DNA of 64,000 bases, taken from contig NZ_FMAE01000007.1 of the NCBI RefSeq assembly GCF_900094575.1, positions 124,001 to 188,000 on the forward strand, in the 5' to 3' direction. Positions 4,330-40,410 of this stretch are shown one piece after another. Source of the DNA: Bradyrhizobium yuanmingense (lineage in GTDB: Bacteria; Pseudomonadota; Alphaproteobacteria; Rhizobiales; Xanthobacteraceae). Position 1 is the stretch's first letter, and every line of letters begins with the position of its first letter. The notes under the pieces were generated by a model. It saw only the letters and a program-made list of their open reading frames with translations. It made no database searches and was not told the DNA's origin. The position numbers and the translations under genes were made by a program.

Positions 4330-5670
4330 TCACTTGGGATTGGTGTCTTTGTAGATGATCCCGTCCTTCATGATGACGACAAGCTTATTTGCGGGGTCCT
4401 CGATGAGGCGAATGTCTTCCAGCGGATTGCCATCGACGAGCAGGAGATCGGCCAATGCGCCTTCCTCGACCACTCCGATCCTGCCGGGATAAGGATTCCG
4501 CGCTCCGGAAAGCGCGAGCAGCTCTCCATTGGTTGAGGTCGCCATCGTCAGCGCTTCCGCCGGCGTGAACCACCGCGTGAGGTCTACGATGCCCTGACCC
4601 TGATGCTCGGCCAGTGGCTTCGAGAAGAGGATATCTGTTCCAAAGGCGGTCTTGATCCCAAACTTCTTGACGAGCCCGTACACGGTGTCCGTTCCCGCAA
4701 CAACCTGGCGCATCTGCGCCTGTTGGGCGGGCGGGAGCATGGCTGCGCCGCCGAGGTCTACGAACGGCTGAGTGCTCAGCCAGATTTGCTTCTCGGCGAT
4801 GAGGCGTGCAGTCGGTTCATCCATGAGATGACCATGCTCGATCACTTTGACGCCCGCGGCGATGGAACGTCGAATTGCGCTCGGTGTATATGCGTGTGTT
4901 GCAACATACGTCCCCCAATCGGTGGCGGTTTCGACGGCCGCGCGCAAGTCCGCTTCGCTGAATGTGGTCACATCAAGTGGGCTGAAAGGCGAGGCGACGC
5001 CTCCCCCTGCCGTCAGCTTGACCTGGGACGCGCCCTGCATGAGCTGTTCGCGCACGCGCTTGCGGACCTCGTCGGGATCATCCGCGATGATGCTTCCGCC
5101 GAGCTGTTCGACGCGGCTTGTTCCGCCCTGACTTTGCGGCAGCTCCCAAAGCTCGCGGAAGTCTCCATGGCCGCCGGTGACCGTGATGACGGCTCCCGAT
5201 GGATAGATGCGAGGACCCGGGACGAGACCTTCATCGATCGCGCGTTTGAGTGAGAAGGTGGGGCCGCCCATGTCCCTGACTGTCGTGAATCCGCGCATCA
5301 GTGTCGCTGTCGCTTCCGCGCTCGCCAGCAGCGTCGTATATCCGAGGTCGCTCGACAGCATCTGCGCGGGTGTCGGACGGACCATCATCGCGTGCCAATG
5401 CATGTCGCTGAGCCCGGGCATCAGCACGCGTCCACCGCCTTGTATGACGCGGGCGTCCACGCGACGATCGGTTGGAATGGGAGCGGTCACGATCCGCTCG
5501 ATGATGTTTCCGCGGATGACGACATTCGATGGGACGGAAAGCGTCTGGCTCTTCCCGTCAAAGATGCGCACGTTCTCGAAGACGGTGACTGCAATCCGCT
5601 CTTGCGGCTCTGCCGGCGTGAGAAAGGTGCACGTCGCAACAATGATCGTGGCACACTCGGCTATCCGCAT
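4330..5670 (-). CDS. Metal-dependent amidohydrolase (imidazolonepropionase/prolidase-like)
   Basis: This 446-residue protein carries a complete amidohydrolase-superfamily site: the HxH motif in SDMHWHA (near residue 90), the bridging lysine in QVKLTAGGG, histidines in THAYT and IEHGHL, and the aspartate in FGTDILF. The opening 22 or so residues are hydrophobic and could be a secretion signal, which is usual in this branch, so a periplasmic location is likely. Enzymes of this subgroup hydrolyse amide or dipeptide-like bonds; the substrate is not evident. It stands alone, with degraded genes downstream and a long non-coding stretch upstream. Confidence 0.85.
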   Translation of the reverse strand: MRIAECATIIVATCTFLTPAEPQERIAVTVFENVRIFDGKSQTLSVPSNVVIRGNIIERIVTAPIPTDRRVDARVIQGGGRVLMPGLSDMHWHAMMVRPTPAQMLSSDLGYTTLLASAEATATLMRGFTTVRDMGGPTFSLKRAIDEGLVPGPRIYPSGAVITVTGGHGDFRELWELPQSQGGTSRVEQLGGSIIADDPDEVRKRVREQLMQGASQVKLTAGGGVASPFSPLDVTTFSEADLRAAVETATDWGTYVATHAYTPSAIRRSIAAGVKVIEHGHLMDEPTARLIAEKQIWLSTQPFVDLGGAAMLPPAQQAQMRQVVAGTDTVYGLVKKFGIKTAFGTDILFSKPLAEHQGQGIVDLTRWFTPAEALTMATSTNGELLALSGARNPYPGRIGVVEEGALADLLLVDGNPLEDIRLIEDPANKLVVIMKDGIIYKDTNPK

Positions 5671-29769: not shown

Positions 29770-29797
29770 GTCGGTTCGAATACCACTCTCTCCGCCA
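29770..29797 (+). pseudogene. Decayed 3' end of a serine tRNA gene
   Basis: The stretch GGTTCGAATACCACTCTC plus TCCGCCA reads as the T-arm, acceptor strand and CCA of a class II serine tRNA (expected form GTGGG-TTCGAAT-CCCAC-TCTCTCC-G-CCA). Two T-stem positions are mismatched, and no 5' half lies upstream, so it cannot be a working tRNA. Confidence 0.4.
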
Positions 29798-30004
29798 CGG
29801 TTTGACGGCAGCGAACGCTTCGACCGCCAACTCCGGCGCGGCAGCCTTCGCATGCTTACTTTGAAGTGTGGCGTTGGCTTGCCGCTCCGAAGCTTGCTGC
29901 AACAGTTCGTCTTCGCTTCCGCTGCGCTCCAGCTACGCCGGACACCGCGCTTCGCCCCTCGTTCTCCGCTTGGCTGGGCCGCGCGTAGCCCGAACGGCGA
30001 AGCG

Positions 30005-30051
30005 TGGTGGGCCCGGCAGGACTCGAACCTGCAACCAGACCGTTATGAGCG
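30005..30051 (-). repeat. Displaced 3' fragment of tRNA-Ile2 (candidate att site)
   Basis: These 47 bp are identical to 40335-40381, the part of the tRNA gene from the anticodon loop to the CCA end, and lie in the same orientation exactly 10,330 bp away. Identity stops at both edges (30004 and 30052). Elements that integrate into tRNA genes leave exactly this kind of displaced 3' copy at their far end. Confidence 0.8.
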
Positions 30052-30242
30052 ACGGGCCGCGGCGAGCGTCGTTGATTTTGCTGCGCTTTCGTTTGATTTC
30101 GATGGCGTTCGTCCCGTTTCGACCGGGCTGTTTCTGGTGCGAAACGGGTGCGGCTAGTCTGAGCTTTCAGCTCTTGTTTTGCGTATCTTCCGCCTCCGAA
30201 TTGAGCCGCGGGTTGAACAAAACGCCAACCTCCCGATTGCCG

Positions 30243-30848
30243 CTATCGACCGCTGCGGCGCGTTGCGCGCCGCTTCTTGCGAGAGTCCGGCGGACTCGCT
30301 GTGGAGGCCCGCTGCTCCTCCTCCGACTTGAGCGTAGCCTGCATATGTACGGCCAGCTTCAACGCGCTATCAGCGTTTGATGCGAGCCGGGACAAAAGCT
30401 GGCCTAGCATTTTGAATTCCTCGCGCGTCAGCATTCCAAAGAGTGCGTCATTGACCGGTCGCTGCAATGCGGCAAGGCGGATCAACAAGCTCATTCCACG
30501 CTGGGTCAGAGCAAGTTGCACCCGACGTCCGTCTTCGGGATGGGGGGTTTTCTCGAGAAAGCCATCGGACACCAGTCTGTTGATCTCGTTGGTGACGAAA
30601 GCGCCGCTCAGGTACAGCCGTTCGGCGACCTGGTTCACTCCCATCGGTTCTTCCGCTGTGGAATTCTTGATCGCGATCAGGATCAGATACTGGGTAGGCG
30701 ACAGGTCGACAAAGCCTGCGAATATTTCCCGGCAGGCTTCCAGACTGCGCCCGAACGCGAAGTAGTCGTAGAGGAGGCCGCGAAGCGTACGGTCTCCTTC
30801 CTTGTCGAGCAGCTCGGGTTTCGACGCCGTCAAAAGCGCATCGGTCAC
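30243..30848 (-). CDS. MarR-family transcriptional regulator
   Basis: This 201-residue protein has the winged-helix core of MarR regulators: LSPTQYLILIAIKN, recognition helix NQVAERLYLSGAFVTNEINRL, and wing GFLEKTPHPEDGRRVQLALT (the D-x-R motif). The C-terminal 25 residues are basic and probably disordered. It is divergent from the flavin reductase gene; the shared 151-bp interval carries a perfect inverted repeat over the reductase promoter. Repression of the hydroxylase/transport operon, relieved by the substrate, is the natural inference. Confidence 0.9.
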   Translation of the reverse strand: MTDALLTASKPELLDKEGDRTLRGLLYDYFAFGRSLEACREIFAGFVDLSPTQYLILIAIKNSTAEEPMGVNQVAERLYLSGAFVTNEINRLVSDGFLEKTPHPEDGRRVQLALTQRGMSLLIRLAALQRPVNDALFGMLTREEFKMLGQLLSRLASNADSALKLAVHMQATLKSEEEQRASTASPPDSRKKRRATRRSGR

Positions 30849-30938
30849 GCGATCAATCTCCTCACCAAATCATGACGCTGCGGGCTGCTTAAGAAGCACG
30901 CATGCGCCCGCCCAGCAAGTGGGCTTGACATCTCGAAG

Positions 30939-30957
30939 TAGCTTTGTCAGAAAGCTA
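30939..30957 (+). promoter_or_regulatory. Probable MarR operator
   Basis: TAGCTTT-GTCAG-AAAGCTA is a perfect 7+7 inverted repeat with a 5-bp centre. It covers the -35 hexamer of the promoter at 30944-30972, so a bound regulator would block RNA polymerase. Confidence 0.6.
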
Positions 30958-30972
30958 TCTCGGAATTATAAA
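30944..30972 (+). promoter_or_regulatory. Sigma-70-type promoter of the hydroxylase operon
   Basis: TTGTCA at 30944-30949 and TATAAA at 30967-30972 are separated by 17 bp. Transcription should start near 30979, about 20 bp before the ATG at 31000. A second TTGACA at 30925 has no matching -10. Confidence 0.55.
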
Positions 30973-30999
30973 TCAGGACCAGGCGACGAGGCAGTGTCC

Positions 31000-31518
31000 A
31001 TGGAGGACCGTGCATTCAGGCGTGCCCTAGGCGAATTCGCCACCGGCGTTGCGGTGGTAACCGCGCGCGGGAAGGGCGAAGAGCTCATCGGCATGACCAT
31101 GAGCTCGTTCAATTCCGTCTCGCTCGATCCGCCGCTCGTTCTCTTCAGCGTCGACCGGAAGGCCCGCAGCCTGCCCGCAATGCTCGAAGCCAAGGGCTTC
31201 GCCGTCAACATTCTCGCGCGCGATCAGGAGCAGATTTCCAACCAGTTCGCGCGCGCTCTCTCCGACAAATGGGATCAGGTGAAGACGTCGGTCGGTCATG
31301 CCGAGGCGCCCCTGATCTCGGGCGCTATGGCGCATTTCGAATGCGCGCCGTATGCGATCTACGAGGGCGGCGATCACGTGATCTTCGTTGTCCGCGTCAT
31401 CAGGCACGCGAGCCGCGCCGAGGCCGCTGCTCCCCTGATCTTCTTTCGCGGTCGATACCGCGATCTCGTCGATGAAACCGAGCGCGAGCCGACCTGGCCG
31501 CTTCCCATCCACTACTAG
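31000..31518 (+). CDS. Flavin reductase (HpaC-like), partner of the monooxygenase
   Basis: The 172-residue protein starts at the ATG at 31000, 9 bp after GAGG. It shows the flavin-reductase-like split-barrel pattern: FRRALGEFATGVAVVTA, MTMSSFNSVSLDPPLVLFSVD, and FAVNILARDQEQISNQFA. It would reduce FAD or FMN with NAD(P)H and hand the free reduced flavin to the hydroxylase encoded 20 bp downstream. It has no predicted export signal. Confidence 0.88.
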   Translation: MEDRAFRRALGEFATGVAVVTARGKGEELIGMTMSSFNSVSLDPPLVLFSVDRKARSLPAMLEAKGFAVNILARDQEQISNQFARALSDKWDQVKTSVGHAEAPLISGAMAHFECAPYAIYEGGDHVIFVVRVIRHASRAEAAAPLIFFRGRYRDLVDETEREPTWPLPIHY

Positions 31519-31538
31519 CTTTGAACCGGAGACCTGCG

Positions 31539-33008
31539 ATGCGTAGCGCAAAGGATTATTTGTCGGGCCTGAAGGACGGCCGGACGATCTACATCAACGG
31601 CGCCGCGGTCAGCGATGTCACGACACACCATGCCTTCCGCAACCTCGCCACCTCTATGGCGGGCCTGTTCGACTTCGCGAGCGCGCCGGCGAACGCGGAT
31701 CTGATGACGTTTGACACGGGTGCAGGTCGCGCCAACCGCATCTGGCAGCTTCCGACCTCCTACGCCGAACTCGTCACGCGGCGAAAGGCGCTGGAGGCGT
31801 GGGCCTCGCTGCATGCCGGCTTCATGGGGCGCGCCCCGGACCACGTGGCGTCCTGTATTTCCGGGCTCTACATGGGGCTCGACGTGTTCAAAGCCTATGA
31901 TCCCGCGCGTGCCGGCGCGCTCGAGAGCTACTATCGCTACGCCCGAGACGAGGACCTCTACCTCACCTACGTCATTATCAATCCGCAGGCGGACCGCTCG
32001 AAAGGCGCAGCCGAACAGGCCGATCCGTTCCTCACCGCGGGCGTCGTCGATCGCGACTCCGAAGGCATCACCATCCGCGGCGCCAAGATGCTCGCCACCG
32101 GCGGCGTGGTCGCCGATGAGGTGTTCGTCACCACCATCCAGCCGATGCGTCCCGGCGAAGAGCGCTATGCGATGTCCTTCGCGATTCCGATGAACACGAA
32201 GGGCCTCAAGATGCTGTCGCGCAAGTCCTACGAGGATGCCGCCGGCGCCGTGTTCGACAATCCCTTGTCCAGCCGCTTCGACGAGAACGACTCGGTCCTC
32301 TATTTCGACGACGTGAAGGTGCCGTGGGACCGCGTCTTCATCGAGGGCAACGTCGAGATGTGCCAGAAGCAGTTTCACGGCACGCCGTGCCACGTCTACC
32401 AGAACTACCAGGCGATGGTGCGTCTGAGTGTCAAGCTCAAGTTCCTGACCGGCCTTGCGCATCGGACCGCCGACATGAACGGCGTCACCCAATTCCCGCA
32501 AGTGCGCGAAATGCTCGGCCAGCTCGCGGCCGAGACCGGCATGGTCGACGCGCTGGTGGCTGCGATGGAGGCCAAGGGCACGCAGGTCGGCCCCTATTTC
32601 ATCCCGGACCGGCACACGCTCTACTCCGCGCAGGTGCTGACGCAGCAGCTCTATGGACACGTCATCAACACGCTCCGCGAGCTCGCCGGCGGCGGCATGA
32701 TCATGCTGCCGTCGTCGGTCGCGGACTTCGAGAACCCCGAGATCGCGGCCTTGGTCGGCAAGACCCAGCAGTCGCCGAAGGCTAACTCGCACGATCGCGT
32801 GAAATTCTACAAGCTCGCCTGGGATGCCGTCGGCTCGGAATTCGGCTCGCGCCATCAGCAATACGAGATGTTCTACGCCGGCGCGACCTTCGTCACCAAG
32901 GGTCATTCCTATCGCACCTATGACTGGGCCGGCGCCGACCGCCTAGTGCAGACCATGCTCGATTCCTACGACCTCAACGGCGTGTCGGCCGCCAGCAAAG
33001 CTGCCTGA
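31539..33008 (+). CDS. 4-Hydroxyphenylacetate 3-monooxygenase (HpaB)-family flavin hydroxylase
   Basis: The 489-residue protein has the length and domain order of the HpaB family (acyl-CoA-dehydrogenase-like fold). Markers are MRSAKDYLSGLKDGRTIYING at the start, ESYYRYARDEDLYLTYVIINPQ, ITIRGAKMLATGGVVADEVF and YFDDVKVPWDRVF. It would use FADH2 from the reductase upstream to hydroxylate a phenol or an N-heteroaromatic ring. Family members differ widely in substrate (hydroxyphenylacetate, chlorophenols, pyrrole carboxylate). The start ATG at 31539 follows CGGAG. Neighbouring amidase and DUF2848 genes favour a nitrogen-bearing substrate, but that is inference. Confidence 0.87.
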   Translation: MRSAKDYLSGLKDGRTIYINGAAVSDVTTHHAFRNLATSMAGLFDFASAPANADLMTFDTGAGRANRIWQLPTSYAELVTRRKALEAWASLHAGFMGRAPDHVASCISGLYMGLDVFKAYDPARAGALESYYRYARDEDLYLTYVIINPQADRSKGAAEQADPFLTAGVVDRDSEGITIRGAKMLATGGVVADEVFVTTIQPMRPGEERYAMSFAIPMNTKGLKMLSRKSYEDAAGAVFDNPLSSRFDENDSVLYFDDVKVPWDRVFIEGNVEMCQKQFHGTPCHVYQNYQAMVRLSVKLKFLTGLAHRTADMNGVTQFPQVREMLGQLAAETGMVDALVAAMEAKGTQVGPYFIPDRHTLYSAQVLTQQLYGHVINTLRELAGGGMIMLPSSVADFENPEIAALVGKTQQSPKANSHDRVKFYKLAWDAVGSEFGSRHQQYEMFYAGATFVTKGHSYRTYDWAGADRLVQTMLDSYDLNGVSAASKAA

Positions 33009-33025
33009 TCCGAAGGAGACAATGC

Positions 33026-33406
33026 ATGCCCGTCAACAAGAAGCACGACGAATTCCATACGCTCGACATGACCACCGGCTGGGAAGTGCCGGCGGGATAT
33101 CCGGCCGGCATCCAGCAGAAGATCATCTCTGGCGGATTGGACGAGGAGAACCGGCGCGGGACGCGGACTCGGCTGCTGCGGTTTGCGCCCGGCGTCTACA
33201 CCACCGCGCCGTTCTCCCACGACTATTGGGAAGAGGTTTATCTGATCTCGGGCGATTTGATCGTCGGCAATGATGCGAAGGGCGAGGGCGGCAAGAGCTT
33301 CCCGCCGAACACTTATGCCTGCCGGCCACCGCATGCGTCGCATGGCCCGTTCAAGTCCGTGAACGGCTGTCTGCTTCTCGAGATGCACTATTTCGATCCG
33401 GTGTGA
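33026..33406 (+). CDS. Cupin-domain protein
   Basis: This 126-residue single-cupin protein has motif 1 as HDYWEEVYLISGDLIVG and motif 2 as CRPPHASHGPFKS. The first usual histidine pair is reduced to His plus Glu residues, and His-x-x-His is present in the second motif, so a metal site is possible. Short cupins in catabolic operons act as dioxygenases, isomerases or hydrolase helpers. It lies 17 bp after the monooxygenase and probably handles its product. Confidence 0.75.
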   Translation: MPVNKKHDEFHTLDMTTGWEVPAGYPAGIQQKIISGGLDEENRRGTRTRLLRFAPGVYTTAPFSHDYWEEVYLISGDLIVGNDAKGEGGKSFPPNTYACRPPHASHGPFKSVNGCLLLEMHYFDPV

Positions 33407-33459
33407 TCCGGATCGCTGCCGCACAACATCATTCGACCAGCACAGGGGGAAGAGAAGTC

Positions 33460-34848
33460 ATGACGTCCAGAGGTATCTCTATCGGAGTTTCGCGTTACCT
33501 GTCGTCACTTGAACGGCTCTTCAGGTTGGATCGCGGTGTGCCGCAGGGCAAGGTCCGATGGGCGGTGGACGGACTTGCCGGGGCGCTCGCGCTCGGTGTG
33601 GTAGCCGCAACGCCGGCCGCTGCGCAGGACAAGCCGAGCGCGTTGGGGCTGGGCATCTTCACGTTCACGTCAGGTCCTGCCGCAGCCTACGGCATGCCGG
33701 GCAAGAACGCGGCCGACCTCATGATCGACGAGATCAATGCAAAGGGCGGCATCGGAGGCGTGCCGGTCAGTGCGACCTATGTCGACGAGGCGCAGGGCGC
33801 GCAAGGTGTGATCGCGGAGTATCGGCGGCTCGCCGGTGATGCGAAGAACCAGGTTATGGTCGCCGCCCTCTCGAGCGCGAATTGCCTGGCGCTGGCGCCG
33901 CTCGCCGACCAACTCGAGGTCCCCACTGTCGGTTGGAATTGCGATACCCATCAGCTGCTGATGGATGGCAAGAGCAAATATGTGTTCCGGCCCAACGGCA
34001 ACACCGTGCCCGAATTCATCGCCTACGCGATCTACCTGCTGGATCGCAAACCTGATCTGAAGACGGTGGCGATCATCAATCCGGACTATGCCTTCGGCCA
34101 TGACGCGGCCAAGATCTTCACCGCGGCGTTGAAGGCCCTGAAGCCGGACGTCGAGATCGTCGCCGAACTCTATCCGAAGCTCGGCTCGCCGAACTATCAG
34201 ACCGAAATCTCGCGCCTTACCACCACGCGCCCGGACGTGGTCTTCTCAAATCTGTGGGGCGCCGACCTCGAGAACTTCGTCCGCCAGGCAGCACCGCGTG
34301 GAATCTTCACCTCCAGTCAGGTCATCCTGGCGCTCGGCGAGACCGTGCTGCAACGCGTGCCGTTGCCTGACGGCGTGATCGTCGGTGTTCTCGGTGATGG
34401 CTGGTGGATGTCGCCGGACGCCAAGAATAAGCCGGAGACGGTGAAGTTTGCCGAAGCCTACAAAGCGCGCTTCGGCGAGTACCCGGTGTTCCCGTCGATC
34501 AAGATGGCTAACGCGCTGATCTACGTGAAGGCAGCCTACGATGCCGCGATGCAGAAAAACGGCGGCAAATGGCCGACCCGTGGCGAACTCGCCGCGGCGA
34601 TGAAGGGGAGCAAGGTCGAGACCCTGACGGGCACGGCGCAGACGCGCGCGGACAATGACGGCCTCGTCGACCAGATCGTCGGCGTCACCGTGAAGACACC
34701 CGCGCAGCAGTCTCCCGTGATCGGCGACATGGTCCGTTACAAGGGCGACAGCCTGATGCCGCAGGCCGGCCAGGATCCGCTCGCCTGGATTGCGACCCTC
34801 AAGCCCGAGTTCGCAAAGAGCCTGCCGAAGCCCGGCAGTTACAAATAG
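33460..34848 (+). CDS. ABC transporter substrate-binding protein, branched-chain amino acid/amide type
   Basis: The protein is 462 residues from the ATG at 33460 (GGGGGAAGAG site). It belongs to Peripla_BP_6 (GIFTFTSGPAAAYGMPGKNAADLMIDEINAKGGIGG split over residues 64-100). The signal helix (AGALALGVVAATPAAAQ) lies unusually far in, ending near residue 56, after about 35 basic and polar residues. Either a downstream start such as the GTG at 33538 is used or it has a long signal. It captures the substrate for the permeases and ATPases that follow. Confidence 0.88.
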   Translation: MTSRGISIGVSRYLSSLERLFRLDRGVPQGKVRWAVDGLAGALALGVVAATPAAAQDKPSALGLGIFTFTSGPAAAYGMPGKNAADLMIDEINAKGGIGGVPVSATYVDEAQGAQGVIAEYRRLAGDAKNQVMVAALSSANCLALAPLADQLEVPTVGWNCDTHQLLMDGKSKYVFRPNGNTVPEFIAYAIYLLDRKPDLKTVAIINPDYAFGHDAAKIFTAALKALKPDVEIVAELYPKLGSPNYQTEISRLTTTRPDVVFSNLWGADLENFVRQAAPRGIFTSSQVILALGETVLQRVPLPDGVIVGVLGDGWWMSPDAKNKPETVKFAEAYKARFGEYPVFPSIKMANALIYVKAAYDAAMQKNGGKWPTRGELAAAMKGSKVETLTGTAQTRADNDGLVDQIVGVTVKTPAQQSPVIGDMVRYKGDSLMPQAGQDPLAWIATLKPEFAKSLPKPGSYK

Positions 34849-34881
34849 TCCGGGATGATGTTCACCTGAGGGCGAAGGCCG

Positions 34882-35781
34882 ATGTCGAATGCAATCATTC
34901 CCCTGCTGCTGGACAGTCTGGCGAGCGCCGCGTTGATCTTCTTCGCGGCGGTCGGCCTGACGCTGGTGTTCAGCGTGCTGCGCGTCCTCAACGTCGCCCA
35001 TGGCAGCCTGTATTCGATTGGTGGCTATGTGGCGGCCTCGATCTGCCTGTTCATCGCGAGCCGGCAGCTCAACCCGTATTTGTCGTTCCTGGCGCTGCTG
35101 TTCAGCGCCGTGTGCGTGGCGGCGATATTCGGTCCGCTGATCGAACGCGGCTTGGTTCGCTGGACCTATGGCAAATCGGAAGCCGTGCAGATCCTGATCA
35201 CGTTCGGACTGTTCCTCATTCTGGAGGACCTTCAGCGCGTGGTCTTCGGCGTCCAGTCCTTCTACGAAGACGCGCCGATGCGATTGCTCGGCACCACGAG
35301 TGTCGGCGGTGTCGTCTATCTCAACTACCAGATCCTCCTGATCGCCATGGCGCTCCTCGTCGTCGTCGGCCTGCGGCTCCTGATCAATCACACCCGGCTG
35401 GGGCGCCTGATCACGGCCGTCGTCACCGATCGCGAAATGGCGCAGTCGATCGGGATCGATACCAACCGGATCTTCATCGTGGCGTTTTCGCTCGGCGTGT
35501 TCCTCGCGGCATTGGGCGGCGCGCTGGCAACGCCGACCTCGGGTATCGCGCCGGGCCTCGGCGCCGACACCATGGTGCTCGCCTTTGCGGTCGCGGCGAT
35601 CGGGGGACTCGGACAGATCGAGGGCGCCGCCTTGGCTTCGCTGATCGTCGGGCTGGCGCGTGTGCTCGCGATCTATCTTGTGCCGTCGCTGGATGCGGTT
35701 GCGCCCTATGCGGCGATGCTCATCGTTCTCCTGATCCGCCCCTACGGCCTGTTCGGATCGGTGACGGCGCGGAGGATATGA
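34882..35781 (+). CDS. livH: Branched-chain amino acid-type ABC permease, LivH family
   Basis: This 299-residue protein has about eight hydrophobic helices and the LivH pattern: LTLVFSVLRVLNVAHGSLYSIG near the start and TNRIFIVAFSLGVFLAALGGALA with the EAA-like loop late. It forms half of the membrane channel with the LivM-type protein. Its stop overlaps the next start by one base (TGATG). The gene name gives family only; the true substrate is unlikely to be leucine. Confidence 0.9.
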   Translation: MSNAIIPLLLDSLASAALIFFAAVGLTLVFSVLRVLNVAHGSLYSIGGYVAASICLFIASRQLNPYLSFLALLFSAVCVAAIFGPLIERGLVRWTYGKSEAVQILITFGLFLILEDLQRVVFGVQSFYEDAPMRLLGTTSVGGVVYLNYQILLIAMALLVVVGLRLLINHTRLGRLITAVVTDREMAQSIGIDTNRIFIVAFSLGVFLAALGGALATPTSGIAPGLGADTMVLAFAVAAIGGLGQIEGAALASLIVGLARVLAIYLVPSLDAVAPYAAMLIVLLIRPYGLFGSVTARRI

Positions 35782-36704
35782 TGCCAACGATCATCGCCGC
35801 CGCGGCGGTCCTCGTCATCGCGCTGCTGCCCGTGGCCGCGCCCTGGCTGCAATTCGTGTTGACGCTTGCGATCGCCAAGGGGTTTGCGGCGCTCGGCGTC
35901 GCCGTGCTGCTCCGCGCGGGCCTGATCTCAATCGGCCATGCGATGTTCTTTGCCGCGAGTGCCTATGCGGTCGCGTTCCTGGCGCGCGCCGGCGTCAACG
36001 ACCTTGGGCTGCTATTGATCCTCTCGGTGCTGGGCGGGGCGCTCGTGGGCGCCGTGGCCGGATCGTTTCTCGTCCGCTATCGCGCGATCTTCTTCGCGAT
36101 GTTGAATCTTGCGGTCTCCATGGTGTTCTATGCGCTGTGCGCCAAGCTGTACGGCGTCACCGGCGGGACCGACGGCAAGCCGGTGCCGGTCCCGGCCGTG
36201 TTCGGCGTTGTCCTTGGCGAGCCGGCCTTCAAGAGCGTGCTGTTCTATCTCAGCCTGGGGCTGATGGTGCTGGTCGGTCTGGCCGTGCAGCGCTACCTCA
36301 ACAGCCCGCTCGGCCATGCTCTTTCGGCCGTCCATACCAACGAGATCCGGCTCGAATATCTGGGCATTCCGGTCTGGGCGGTCCTGCTGATCGCCTATGT
36401 CGTGTCGGCGGCGCTCGCCGGCCTTGGCGGCGCGATCGCGGGCTTTGCGATCGGTCGTGTGGTCCCGGATTTCGCGTTCTGGACCGCATCCGGTCACCTC
36501 GTGCTGATCGCCGTGCTCGGCGGCATCGGCGGCGTGCCGGGCGCGTTCATCGGTGCCCTGTTCCTGGAATTGCTGCACAGCGCGGCCGTGACGGTCACGG
36601 ATTCCTGGAACTTGATCGTGGGCATGGCGCTGATCATCGTGATCATGTTCATGCCGAAGGGGATCTATGGATTGTTCGCGCGCAAGGAGGCGACGGGCCT
36701 ATGA
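35781..36704 (+). CDS. livM: Branched-chain amino acid-type ABC permease, LivM family
   Basis: This 307-residue protein has about nine hydrophobic segments and LivM markers (LISIGHAMFFAASAYAVA; YLGIPVWAVLLIAYVVSAALAGLGG in two stretches; PGAFIGALFLELL). Two ATG codons in a row lie at 35778 and 35781; the second is better placed behind GGAGG at 35771. It overlaps the ATPase gene by 4 bp. It pairs with LivH in the inner membrane. Confidence 0.9.
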   Translation: MPTIIAAAAVLVIALLPVAAPWLQFVLTLAIAKGFAALGVAVLLRAGLISIGHAMFFAASAYAVAFLARAGVNDLGLLLILSVLGGALVGAVAGSFLVRYRAIFFAMLNLAVSMVFYALCAKLYGVTGGTDGKPVPVPAVFGVVLGEPAFKSVLFYLSLGLMVLVGLAVQRYLNSPLGHALSAVHTNEIRLEYLGIPVWAVLLIAYVVSAALAGLGGAIAGFAIGRVVPDFAFWTASGHLVLIAVLGGIGGVPGAFIGALFLELLHSAAVTVTDSWNLIVGMALIIVIMFMPKGIYGLFARKEATGL

Positions 36705-37447
36705 CCCATCCCATCCTGGAAGCCAGGAGCCTTCACGTCTCATTCAACGGCGTCAAGGCCGCCGACGATGTCAGCATCGCGATCCATGACGGCGAGTTCC
36801 TCGCGATCATCGGTCCGAACGGGTCGGGCAAGACGACGCTGCTCAACATCTGCACGGGCTACATCCGCCCGAGATCGGGCAACGTGCTGCTCGACGGCCA
36901 CGACATCACCCGTCTCTCGCCGCGTGCCATCGCCCGCCGCGGCGTCGCCCGCGCTTTCCAGATCCCACAGCTCTTCTCCGCACAGCGCGTGATCGACAAC
37001 ATGATGCTGGCCCTGGCGGGGACCGATGGTCTGTGGAGCGCGGTGCAGCCGCTCGAGACGGCGCGGCGGCGCGACGAAGCAAGGGCGCTGCTCGATCTCG
37101 TCGGCCTCGCCGACGATGCCGACCGGATCAGCAGCACCCTTCCGGAAGGGCATCGCAAGCTGCTGGATATCGCGGTTGCGTTGGCGCTCAAGCCGCGGCT
37201 GCTGCTGCTCGACGAACCGACCAGTGGTGTGAGCGCCCTCGAACGATTCCCGTTGATGGAGGCACTGATGGCGGCGCTGCGCCAGCGCCGCATCACCGCA
37301 CTGTTCGTGGAGCACGACATGGACGTGGTCGCGCGCTACGCCAGCCGCGTCCTGGTGTGGAACGCCGGGAACATCATGGCCGAGGGCCGGCCCGACGAGG
37401 TGTTCAGCAATGCGCAAGTGCGCCAACGTGTCGTAGGGGTGGCCTGA
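36701..37447 (+). CDS. livG: ABC transporter ATP-binding protein, LivG family
   Basis: The 248-residue protein has Walker A GPNGSGKTT, Walker B LLLLDEPTSG and the switch region FVEHDMDVV. The signature loop reads LPEGHRKLLDIAVAL instead of the common L-S-x-G-Q form, a variant but with the glycine intact. ATP binding and hydrolysis drive the importer. Overlaps on both sides (4 bp with livM, TGATG with the next gene) show tight co-translation. Confidence 0.9.
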   Translation: MTHPILEARSLHVSFNGVKAADDVSIAIHDGEFLAIIGPNGSGKTTLLNICTGYIRPRSGNVLLDGHDITRLSPRAIARRGVARAFQIPQLFSAQRVIDNMMLALAGTDGLWSAVQPLETARRRDEARALLDLVGLADDADRISSTLPEGHRKLLDIAVALALKPRLLLLDEPTSGVSALERFPLMEALMAALRQRRITALFVEHDMDVVARYASRVLVWNAGNIMAEGRPDEVFSNAQVRQRVVGVA

Positions 37448-38139
37448 TGCTCCGGCTCGACAAGGTCAGCGTCTCGATCGAGGGCGTTCGTGTGCTGCGC
37501 GGCGTCAGTTGCGAGATCATCGCGCGCAAGACGACGGTGTTGATCGGGCGCAACGGCGCCGGCAAGACCACGACCCTTCGCGCAATCATGGGCCTCATCG
37601 CGATGGACCAGGGCTCTGTCCGCCTCGATGCTGACGATCTCGGCAGCAGGCCTGCCTACACCCGCGCCCGCGCCGGGATTGGTTATGCGCCGGAGGACCG
37701 GCGCCTGATTCCGGAGCTGAGCGTGGAGGAGAACATCCGCCTCCCGGCCCTGGCGCTGAAGCTCGACCGCGCCGAGGTCGCACGCAGGCTTGACGAGATC
37801 TACCAGCTGTTGCCCGAATTGCACGTGATGCGGTCCCGGCCGGCCGGCGGCGTTTCCGGAGGGCAGGGCAAGATGGTCGCGCTGGGGCGCGCACTGACGG
37901 TGGCACGCAAGGTCCTGCTGCTCGACGAGCCGTTTCAGGGTCTGGCACCGGCCCTCGCGCTCGACTATGCGCGGACACTCGGCGAATTGCGCAAGCATCG
38001 ACCCGAGCTTGCCATGCTGATCACCGAATCCTCGCCCGCGCTGCTCGACCGCATCGCCGACAGGACGCTGCAGATCGAGCGTGGCGAAATCCTGGATACA
38101 TCGACCAAGGATAGGGAATTCCATGTTGCTGCAATTTGA
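37447..38139 (+). CDS. livF: ABC transporter ATP-binding protein, LivF family
   Basis: This 230-residue protein has Walker A GRNGAGKTT, signature VSGGQGKMVALGRAL, Walker B VLLLDEPFQGLAP and the family's GYAPEDRRLIPELSVEENI. The switch position carries Ser (LITESSPALL) where most ATPases have His, but LivF proteins often lack the His. It is the second ATPase of the importer. Its end overlaps the DUF2848 gene by 17 bp. Confidence 0.9.
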   Translation: MLRLDKVSVSIEGVRVLRGVSCEIIARKTTVLIGRNGAGKTTTLRAIMGLIAMDQGSVRLDADDLGSRPAYTRARAGIGYAPEDRRLIPELSVEENIRLPALALKLDRAEVARRLDEIYQLLPELHVMRSRPAGGVSGGQGKMVALGRALTVARKVLLLDEPFQGLAPALALDYARTLGELRKHRPELAMLITESSPALLDRIADRTLQIERGEILDTSTKDREFHVAAI

Positions 38140-38806
38140 CCGCCTCGCAAAGGACCGGACCGACCGGGTCGGGATCGAGATCCATTCTCTTGTCATCGCC
38201 GGCTGGGCGGGCAGGGATGCGGCGGCGATCGAGCACCATGTCGAGGAGCTCGCTGCGCTCGGCATTGCGCGCCCCTCAACGACACCGCTCTATTACCGCG
38301 TCGCCACGCAGACCTTGACCCAGGACAGCAACCTGACCGTCCTTGGCCCGGACAGTTCCGGCGAAGTCGAGCCTGTCATTGTCGCAATGGCTGACGGGCT
38401 ATGGATCGGCATCGGATCCGATCATACCGACCGCAAGGCCGAAGCGTCGGGCATTGCTCTTTCGAAGCAACTCTGCGGCAAGCCGATCGGCGCACAGCTC
38501 TGGTCCTATGCCGATGTCGAGGCTCATTGGGATGAGCTGGTCCTTCGTTCGTGGGCAACAATCGACGGGAATCGGGTGCTGTATCAGGACAGCCCGGTGT
38601 CCTCGCTCAGGACACCACGCGACCTCATTCGTCGCTACACCGGCACGGACATGCTACCAGCCGGCACGCTGATGTTCTGCGGAACGCCGGGCGCGATCGG
38701 CGGCATTCGGCCGGGGACGCGTTTTGAGATGGAGCTGAAGGACCCGGTCCTGAACCGGTCCCTGACCCATGGCTACGACATCGACGTTCTTCCGGTCGTC
38801 TCCTGA
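38123..38806 (+). CDS. DUF2848 family protein
   Basis: The 227-residue protein matches the DUF2848 pattern: an N-terminal VIAGWAGRDAAAIEHHVEEL, the YYRVA..LTQDSNLTVLGPDSSGEVEP region and the late LPAGTLMFCGTPGAIGGIRPG, which recalls fumarylacetoacetate-hydrolase-like folds. Members often accompany amide or urea-type ABC importers and amidases. A C-C or C-N hydrolase role is plausible but untested. Its ATG lies inside the end of livF, which couples translation. Confidence 0.75.
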   Translation: MLLQFDRLAKDRTDRVGIEIHSLVIAGWAGRDAAAIEHHVEELAALGIARPSTTPLYYRVATQTLTQDSNLTVLGPDSSGEVEPVIVAMADGLWIGIGSDHTDRKAEASGIALSKQLCGKPIGAQLWSYADVEAHWDELVLRSWATIDGNRVLYQDSPVSSLRTPRDLIRRYTGTDMLPAGTLMFCGTPGAIGGIRPGTRFEMELKDPVLNRSLTHGYDIDVLPVVS

Positions 38807-38827
38807 ACTTTCTGCCCGGCGCGTGTC

Positions 38828-40156
38828 ATGACAGCAACAAAGGATCCATCGCACCCTTCGGCCGTCGCACGGTTGGAGGCGGCACTTGCGCGGATCCATT
38901 CGCCGGAAGCGACGAACGTCTTCACGGCCGTCTTTGCGGATAGCGCCCGCTGGGAGGCCGAAGCTGCGGAGCGTCGCGCCGCTGCCGGAGCGTCTCGCGG
39001 TCCGCTCGATGGTTGTATTATTTCGGTGAAGGCGTTGTTCGACGTCGCCGGCACCGTCACGAGCTCGGGCTCGGCTGTCCTGCGCCGACTGCCACCGGCC
39101 GTTGAAGACGCCGAGGTCGTCAAGCGGTTGCGGGCTGCGGGTGCCATCGTCATCGGCAAGACGCAGATGACGGAATTCGCCTTCTCCGCGTTGGGTACGA
39201 ACCCACACGACGGGATGCCGGGCAATCCTCGAGACCGCAGCCGTGTTCCGGGAGGCTCGTCAGCGGGCGCTGTCGTGTCCGTAATTGGCGGCATGGCCGA
39301 CATCGCCATCGGCAGCGACACCGGCGGCTCCCTGCGAATCCCGGCCGCACTGTCGGGCGCGGTCGGCTTCAAGCCGACCAGCGGTTTCGTGCCGACCGCC
39401 GGCGCATTCTCACTATCTTCGAGCCTCGACACGATCGGTCCAATCGCCGCGAACGTCGAAGAGTGCTTCGTGGCTGATCAGGTGCTTTCAGGCGAAAGCA
39501 CGCCGTCGCGGTTGAAGTCCGCATCCCCCGGCACGTTCCGCCTGATCATTGCCCGCGGGCGCTTGTTCGATCGATGCGAACCCGAGGTGCTCGCCGCGTT
39601 CGAGAACGCCATGGAGCGGCTGCGATCAGGCGGCTTGCAGATCAAGGATGGATCCATCGAGGCTGCGCTCGATGACGTCGCCCAGATCGACAAGATCGGC
39701 ACCTTCCCGTCGATCGAGGTCGGCGCGACGCTGCGCGGTTTGGGTCTCTCGGAACTGGACGGGATCGATCCTCGGACGCGCGTCCGCATCGAGGCCGGCG
39801 CCGGCATTCTCGGCACGGACTATGTGTGCATGATGCGGCTCCGGCAGGCGGCCATCCGCTCGTTCGACCAGTATTTCAGCAACAACGAGGTGTTCGTCCT
39901 GCCGACGACGCCAGTCCGAGCGCCGTTGATTTCCTCCGTTGCGGAGGATGCGGCATTCCATGAGCTCAATGGCCTCGTCCTGCGCAATCCGCGCGTCGCT
40001 AACCTGCTCGACTGCCCATCGATTTCCCTACCGTTGCCCCTCGATGGCCTTCCCGTCGGCCTGATGCTGATCGGTCGTAGAAACGCCGACCGGCGCCTGG
40101 TGGAGATCGCAGCCAGTGTAGAAGCGCTGCTGCGCGGACATTTGCATGCTGCATAG
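38828..40156 (+). CDS. Amidase (amidase-signature family)
   Basis: The 442-residue enzyme has the full catalytic triad: Lys68 (ISVKALFD), Ser144 (PGGSSAGA) and Ser168 (GSDTGGSLRIPAA). The 76 and 24 residue spacings match those of well-studied members. It hydrolyses a C-N amide bond to acid plus ammonia or amine. It is not GatA: no gatC or gatB is near. As the last gene of the island operon it would release nitrogen from the imported or ring-opened compound. About 180 bp follow before the convergent tRNA. Confidence 0.9.
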   Translation: MTATKDPSHPSAVARLEAALARIHSPEATNVFTAVFADSARWEAEAAERRAAAGASRGPLDGCIISVKALFDVAGTVTSSGSAVLRRLPPAVEDAEVVKRLRAAGAIVIGKTQMTEFAFSALGTNPHDGMPGNPRDRSRVPGGSSAGAVVSVIGGMADIAIGSDTGGSLRIPAALSGAVGFKPTSGFVPTAGAFSLSSSLDTIGPIAANVEECFVADQVLSGESTPSRLKSASPGTFRLIIARGRLFDRCEPEVLAAFENAMERLRSGGLQIKDGSIEAALDDVAQIDKIGTFPSIEVGATLRGLGLSELDGIDPRTRVRIEAGAGILGTDYVCMMRLRQAAIRSFDQYFSNNEVFVLPTTPVRAPLISSVAEDAAFHELNGLVLRNPRVANLLDCPSISLPLPLDGLPVGLMLIGRRNADRRLVEIAASVEALLRGHLHAA

Positions 40157-40334
40157 CTTTTTCGTGCGAAAGGGCCGCCACATCTACGATCACGCGGAGA
40201 AATTGTGACGAGGCCGCCTGTGAAGCTGTAGCTTGCCGATTGCCAATGTATGTCCATGGAGACAGAAACGAGACGTTTCTGGTGCGGTGAACTGACGAAC
40301 GGCAACGGAGATCTGGTAACCCGCTGATTTTGAC

Positions 40335-40410
40335 TGGTGGGCCCGGCAGGACTCGAACCTGCAACCAGACCGTTATGAGCGGCCGGCTCTAACCATTGAG
40401 CTACAGGCCC
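40335..40410 (-). tRNA. tRNA-Ile2 (anticodon CAU)
   Basis: The 76-nt gene, including encoded CCA, folds as a cloverleaf. The acceptor is GGGCCTG paired with CGGGCCC, the D-arm is AGCTCAATGGTTAGAGC, the anticodon loop is CTCATAAC, and the T-loop is TTCGAGT. The short D-loop form AATGGTTAGAGC and the TCTGGTTGC variable region resemble the lysidine-modified minor isoleucine tRNA more than elongator or initiator methionine tRNA; tRNA-Met(CAU) remains the alternative. It reads AUA codons if the C is modified by TilS. It bounds the catabolic island. Confidence 0.85.

Follow-up and report, generated by a model that had tools for sequence, protein, structure and literature searches.

A tRNA-Ile2-bounded island without an integrase in Bradyrhizobium yuanmingense and its probable dependence on an integrase from elsewhere

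In Bradyrhizobium japonicum USDA6, islands without an integrase have been published at trnI-CAU and are still filed as islands, and the same report suggests trnI-CAT as an integration hotspot (PMC3927601). All of the islands in that report have a lower GC content, and they share no nucleotide similarity with one another except for a single USDA6/USDA110 pair. Here we describe an island that joins this group, at positions 30005-40410 of a 64,000-nt stretch of Bradyrhizobium yuanmingense (hereafter the window; positions 124,001 to 188,000 of contig NZ_FMAE01000007.1, here C33, assembly GCF_900094575.1), where an intact tRNA gene bounds it on one side and a displaced copy of the 3' end of this tRNA on the other. 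We refer to the tRNA as tRNA-Ile2 because the matching locus of USDA6 (genome G123 in our set) is annotated as trnI-CAU (PMC3927601). BJ6TGI13 of USDA6 is like the window's island in occupying the same tRNA locus, with a 48-bp duplication, a length of 6.5 kb and no integrase listed (PMC3927601), and at its far end there is a left arm of the type seen in the window, the likeness covering position and ends only. An extra tRNA-Ile2-like copy with a degenerate 5' half lies inside this 6.5-kb GI13 (G123:C1:7792911, locus L244). In contrast to what that report describes for its islands, the composition here is ordinary and shared arms are found. The new detail is the arms, which are shared among tRNA-Ile2 elements and are not described in the accessible text of PMC3927601, PMC9239051, PMC9174649, PMC11837538 or the other literature searched, mostly papers outside subscription.

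Elements that have lost their integration and transfer genes are defined as cis-mobilizable elements (CIMEs; PMC5704250). The window's island resembles them in keeping both attachment ends, with a core and an arm of putative function at each (candidate attL and attR), and in forming tandem arrays in relatives, but loss of the integration genes is only suggested here. Its gene content and a search with PF00589 gave no integration or transfer genes, no search having been aimed at a relaxase or oriT; the one possible sign of decay from an integrative and conjugative element (ICE) or an integrative and mobilizable element is an integrase 3' stub; and tandem accretion is seen in G002 and G018, not in the window itself. 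At ssrA in Dehalococcoides, catabolic modules likewise lie between RNA-gene repeats, some without a recombinase and also in tandem, with serine recombinases and tmRNA there versus, putatively, a tyrosine recombinase and tRNA-Ile2 here (PMC3146451). The symbiosis ICEs of Bradyrhizobium integrate at a tRNA-Ile gene in the same genus, but are about 0.63 Mb long and carry symbiosis and conjugation genes; the likeness noted here lies in the tRNA-Ile target (PMC9239051, PMC9174649). We put the probability that positions 30005-40410 represent an integrated, tRNA-Ile2-specific, CIME-like element of about 10.3 kb with an integrase from elsewhere at roughly 0.87, the term CIME-like being applied because the element holds no integrase.

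Attachment cores, arms and the empty site

An initial annotation of this DNA had claimed two identical 47-bp copies in the same orientation, with an intact tRNA at one end and only its 3' part at the other, and both claims were borne out. Positions 30005-30051 and 40335-40381 are 100% identical over 47 nt in direct orientation, and an ungapped alignment of the two copies reaches 53 nt at 96% identity. When a 46-nt pattern of the repeat was searched with up to three mismatches, only the two cores were found in the 64-kb window and no match in 100 shuffles. The repeat runs from tRNA position 30 to the CCA, making up the final 47 nt of the tRNA, and the left copy is that tail alone. The sole tRNA of the pair recognised by ARAGORN and Rfam lies at 40335-40410 (40338-40410 in Rfam) on the minus strand, with anticodon CAT. 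Islands targeted to a tRNA have this arrangement, in which the complete gene lies at one boundary and its 3' end is repeated in direct orientation at the opposite one. The features concerned are as follows.

29819-30004, no strand assigned: native flank on the 3' side of the tRNA, from which the island has displaced it; joined to the intact tRNA in G040 and G080
30005-30051, minus strand: left attachment core, a displaced duplicate of the 47-nt tail of tRNA-Ile2(CAU), by identity to 40335-40381
30052-30153, no strand assigned: left arm, with TTTCTGGTGCG at 30131-30141 and a degenerate second copy, AAACGGGTGCGG, at 30142-30153
40251-40295, plus strand: possible vestige of an integrase 3' end, a weak in-frame stub reading CPWRQKRDVSGAVN and then a stop
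40275-40334, no strand assigned: right arm, with TTTCTGGTGCG at 40276-40286, 48 nt from the core; matches DNA beside the tRNA of relatives
40335-40410, minus strand: intact tRNA-Ile2 (labelled tRNA-Met, CAT, by ARAGORN; also found by Rfam), its last 47 nt forming the right core

The tRNA and its right flank were searched in 146 genomes of the genus and matched in all 146. At the 30 best loci (the window included) the DNA left of the tRNA was compared with the window, and longer stretches were compared for 20 of the 29 relatives (20 kb for 18 of them and 13-14 kb for two). The predicted empty site, in which position 30004 is joined to an intact tRNA, was found as one block in G040 and G080. When the window's flanks are joined without the island, they align uninterrupted in both genomes (G040, 655 bp at 87.5%; G080, 614 bp at 87.3%), comprising 186 and 146 nt of left flank, respectively, followed by the intact tRNA and the conserved right flank; the left flank taken with the core aligns over 239 and 200 bp, both at 87%. 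Shorter crossings of the junction were found in G029 (100 nt of left flank), G135 (71 nt) and G016 (41 nt), so that an empty site, as at other tRNA-targeted islands, appears in a total of five of the 20 relatives. The contrary outcome named in the initial annotation, the same gene order from 29 to 41 kb without a tRNA fragment, was absent from the left flanks of all 20.

Over 288 kb of the contig, counting both strands, the arm motif TTTCTGGTGCG has three exact copies, of which two lie just inside the two cores. The core edge together with the left arm has a match in 149 of 265 genus genomes at E ≤ 0.001. Among 30 loci drawn from this search (the window being one), 24 have a core and an exact CTGGTGCG within 125 nt, 22 of them at an offset of 82-83, against a background of 0.005 per 125 nt; as similarity to the window's arm was the criterion by which these loci were selected, the counts speak for conservation and are no independent test. 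On the other side, the right-arm motif and a core at fixed spacing occur in 62 of 265 genus genomes, and a reversed-pattern control gave 0. The window keeps approximately 60 nt of the relatives' right arm (40275-40334), with one repeat. The possibility that 40275-40334 is a mere alternative native flank of the tRNA was rejected, as such stretches are integrase 3' ends in several relatives. Of the adjacent islands GI14 and GI15 in USDA6, GI15 has the CTGGTGCG motif at both ends and GI14 has GGTCCACC at both (judged by eye); these arms match within an element and differ between neighbours, as expected of integrase arm sites. From this pattern we infer that the window's arms would bind an integrase.

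Other arm types stand beside the same core at loci L249 (G146), L250 (G010) and L099 (G002), for example CTGAGGCG and CTGTGGG, and the CTGAGGCG arm adjoins a 64%-identical integrase. The arm motif may vary with the integrase subfamily.

Two more partial tRNA-Ile2 tails are present in the same genome, at C34:610184 and C53:683509, the former adjoining a tail fragment of tRNA-Ser, with an intact tRNA-Ser gene 1.2 kb away. In the window, some 200 bp left of the island, positions 29773-29797 match the 3' end of tRNA-Ser with its CCA at 24 of 25 nt; this is a possible trace of another type of element, and C58:25617 of the same genome has a similar fragment.

Window genes were also sought beside the tRNA of the 20 relatives, where three protein matches exceeded 35% identity and only one exceeded 45% (in G107, 67% to the gene at 4330-5670). 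This search led to a conserved block far to the left, which ends at 89.2 kb of contig C33. Between the block and the native flank lie approximately 64.6 kb (contig 89.2-153.8 kb, or window positions -34.8 to about 29.8 kb), a second stretch that is not at this place in the relatives compared and that had not been foreseen in the initial annotation. No Ile2 core or arm was found at its left end.

Integrases and cassette copies in relatives

A gene for a tyrosine recombinase of 416-417 aa is oriented toward the tRNA in G141, G079, G117, G088 and G124 and stops no more than 20 nt short of it, and in several relatives the end of this recombinase of about 416 aa is itself the right-arm DNA. Members of the family in G002, G018 and G140 match PF00589. 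The intact integrases of relatives end in ..ERKAHVSGAV(SGAV)IP..., their final codons holding the repeat TCTGGTGCGGT. As the arm motif itself encodes VSGAV, descent of the window's stub from an integrase gene is only suggested. We collected 76 distinct right arms, including those of the window and of the G018 cassette, of which 37 are two-site and 39, the window's among them, are one-site. An integrase or its remnant lies close upstream of 23 of the 37 two-site arms versus 1 of the 39 one-site arms (Fisher p 7e-9, a value that overstates independence because the genomes are related). This upstream search covered 0.3-3 kb, so that having no integrase near differs from having no integrase in the element. 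The contrast between the two kinds of arm looks like that of an old separate class.

A single-piece match of at least 8.8 kb to the island is present in 25 of 265 genus genomes; one of these is the genome of the window, and the other 24 copies are 80-90% identical to the island. The ends of the cassette were inspected in 30 genomes with a copy (window included; one copy, in G227, spans only 1.8 kb), and at least one core lies within 400 bp of the cassette in 10 of them. Three have both cores, namely the window, G167 (B. ivorense CI-1B) and G174 (B. mercantei SEMIA 6399). In G167 the cassette, without an integrase, has a core at both ends, while in G174 the cassette, again without an integrase and with both cores, stands at the same tRNA and right flank as in the window. 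These bounded units support the earlier claim that 30052-40334 entered as one unit. Tandem neighbours also occur. For example, in G018 (Bradyrhizobium sp. Ghvi) the right arm and core of the island run directly into the left arm of another element, and in G002 the conserved block and native flank are followed in turn by a core, 5.6 kb, a second core, 2.9 kb, a third core, the cassette, a fourth core and the next left arm, the tRNA of that genome lying elsewhere on the chromosome, away from this array.

A search for PF00589 at E ≤ 1e-8 on the contig of the cassette, in eight genomes with an adjacent core (G148 lay outside the search), found none in seven; in the eighth, G002, the nearest match is 227 kb from the cassette. 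The presence of integrase-less copies with similar ends in other species makes it probable that the island moved in its integrase-less form, with a helper. The proposal in the initial annotation that the island was moved by an enzyme encoded elsewhere gains support from the presence at both ends of the arm motif found beside the tRNA-Ile2 recombinase of relatives, and further from the window's own genome, in which no close copy of that recombinase was found.

Movement between lineages is suggested by a comparison of island identity with chromosomal identity, since the former does not follow the latter. The chromosomal reference was one 2.1-kb gene of the conserved block, matched at ≥79% in 10 of 27 genomes searched (percent identity of the chromosomal gene and of the island, respectively: G095, 94 and 84; G059, 91 and 86; G060, 90 and 89; G016, 90 and 83; G018, 86 and 90; G198, 86 and 89; G094, 85 and 89; G140, 82 and 90; G138, 82 and 82; G167, 79 and 89).

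In the mechanism we favour, a circular form with an attachment site of the order right arm, core, left arm would have recombined into the 47-nt tail of the chromosomal tRNA-Ile2, presumably through a tyrosine recombinase. The tRNA would thereby be restored beside the right arm, and a 47-nt copy would be left beside the left arm. The element would have lost, or never had, its own recombinase, and may have moved by means of an integrase provided in trans or encoded by an adjacent member of a tandem array.

Gene content and composition

The genes between the arms are listed below.

30243-30848, minus strand: MarR-family regulator (PF12802/PF01047)
31000-31518, plus strand: flavin reductase (PF01613)
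31539-33008, plus strand: oxygenase part of an HpaB-type two-component flavin monooxygenase (PF11794/PF03241)
33026-33406, plus strand: small cupin (PF12973, below the curated cut-off)
33565-34848, plus strand: substrate-binding protein of an ATP-binding cassette (ABC) transporter (PF13458; start possibly upstream)
34882-35781, plus strand: ABC permease, LivH-like (PF02653)
35778-36704, plus strand: ABC permease, LivM/UrtC-like (match below cut-off)
36701-37447, plus strand: ABC ATPase, LivG-like (PF00005)
37447-38139, plus strand: ABC ATPase, LivF/UrtE-like (match below cut-off)
38123-38806, plus strand: DUF2848 protein (PF11010, 1e-80)
38828-40156, plus strand: amidase (PF01425)

The closest solved structures to the HpaB-type oxygenase are 4-hydroxyphenylacetate and chlorophenol monooxygenases, and HpaB-type enzymes with known structure act mostly on phenol substrates. 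Relatives of this oxygenase beyond the genus occur in Afipia (91%), Bosea (78%) and Rhodopseudomonas (72%), and the DUF2848 protein has no solved-structure relative at E ≤ 0.001. The cargo is a catabolic cluster whose substrate may be a nitrogen-containing aromatic compound.

The absence of an integrase inside the island, noted in the initial annotation, was confirmed, as the PF00589 search gave 17 matches in the 8.2-Mb genome and none on contig C33; the island thus departs from a typical tRNA-targeted island, which has an integrase gene within it. When the relatives' integrase of about 416 aa was compared with the same genome at E ≤ 1e-40, a single relative, 39% identical, was found. The suggested check of base composition did not reveal the island. 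Its GC content of 63.5% compares with 63.2% over the contig's first 288 kb, and 97% of 139 overlapping windows have tetranucleotide profiles farther than the island's from the 288-kb mean; composition was consequently dropped as an island marker.

No symbiosis or conjugation genes are present among the genes of 30052-40334, in contrast to the content of a symbiosis ICE. In other genomes, nifH was located 0.6-0.8 Mb from tRNA-Ile2, on its 3' side, in four of 20 searched (G002, G056, G185 and G241), which is the placement that a symbiosis ICE at tRNA-Ile2 would give. In G141, the only two Ile2 cores (≤2 mismatches) are approximately 707 kb apart, from 7599.8 kb of contig C1 to 20.5 kb across the record ends, a distance that assumes a circular contig; they share the same orientation and the far core has a left arm. 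The reading of this G141 element as a symbiosis ICE was unsupported, nifH lying outside the stretch between the cores.

Alternative explanations and significance

Several observations weigh against an element moved by a foreign integrase. At the chromosomal site, a strict test of the 20 relatives found the native flank at the tRNA in four, the arm motif in 11 and neither in five (G016 among them). Sequences like the displaced flank are found at further places in the genome, in part next to other tRNA genes, so that the presence of the flank alone is not unique; in G080 and G002, however, this flank lies near the conserved block. Twenty of the 30 cassettes lack any core within 400 bp, which had not been foreseen and indicates that the cluster also exists as a normal gene cluster, probably captured. 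Some cores are partial (24 nt in G198; 31 nt at 90% in G140; 39 nt at 92%, degenerate, on the left in G174), G138, G042 and G148 have the left core without the matching left arm, and G174 has no match to the exact right-arm pattern. The 11-mer with one mismatch has four matches in the window, a number reached by five of 100 shuffles, so that the case for the arms rests on the exact copies and their position, and the core-plus-motif test failed in six of the 30 left-arm loci. The relation between island and chromosomal identity was not significant (rho -0.33, p 0.35; one gene, 10 genomes). Finally, the second left-arm site of the window is degenerate and its right arm is one-site, while most integrase-bearing right arms are two-site, making present mobility doubtful.

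The best-surviving alternative is that an integrase-bearing island inserted here and lost its integrase later by deletion, in this lineage only, without ever having moved in integrase-less form. The possible integrase stub at 40251-40295 and the degenerate left-arm site would fit such a history, but integrase-less units with one-site right arms occur in other surroundings in G018 and G167, suggesting that loss preceded spread, and the rarity of integrases upstream of one-site arms is like that of an old separate class. We regard this alternative as unlikely. That the 64.6 kb to the left and the 10.3-kb island arrived together as one composite is considerably more improbable. In its favour, the block ending at contig 89.2 kb is close to the native flank or the tRNA in some relatives, as in G080 and in G002, where it is 3.9 kb from the flank. 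However, the native flank at 29819-30004 separates the two segments, and no Ile2 core or arm occurs in the first 288 kb of the contig beyond the island's own ends, so that they look like two separate events. A tRNA fragment duplicated by chance or conversion within ordinary chromosomal DNA, for which the chromosome-like composition and the 20 coreless copies might speak, is contradicted by the empty site, by the matched arms at both ends and by the doubly bounded units in G167 and G174, and can be all but dismissed.

An integrated tRNA-Ile2-specific element with an integrase from elsewhere remains our preferred reading, and it shows a route by which soil bacteria can turn an ordinary catabolic cluster into a mobile one. 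The empty site, the matched arms, the missing integrase and the core-bounded units in other species are all revealed by sequence alone. Through the arm motif, such modules can be sought without recourse to composition or to an integrase gene, and perhaps assigned to their helper integrase. More tentatively, and with the odds leaning against it, the genus may hold long-lived non-autonomous modules, the window's island included, that have core and left arm in common with the tRNA-Ile2 integrating elements, differ from them in a one-site right arm, and pass from species to species on integrases borrowed from those elements in trans, in a satellite-like manner. Should this one-site class prove real, searches that depend on an integrase gene would easily miss satellite-like islands in a major nitrogen-fixing genus.

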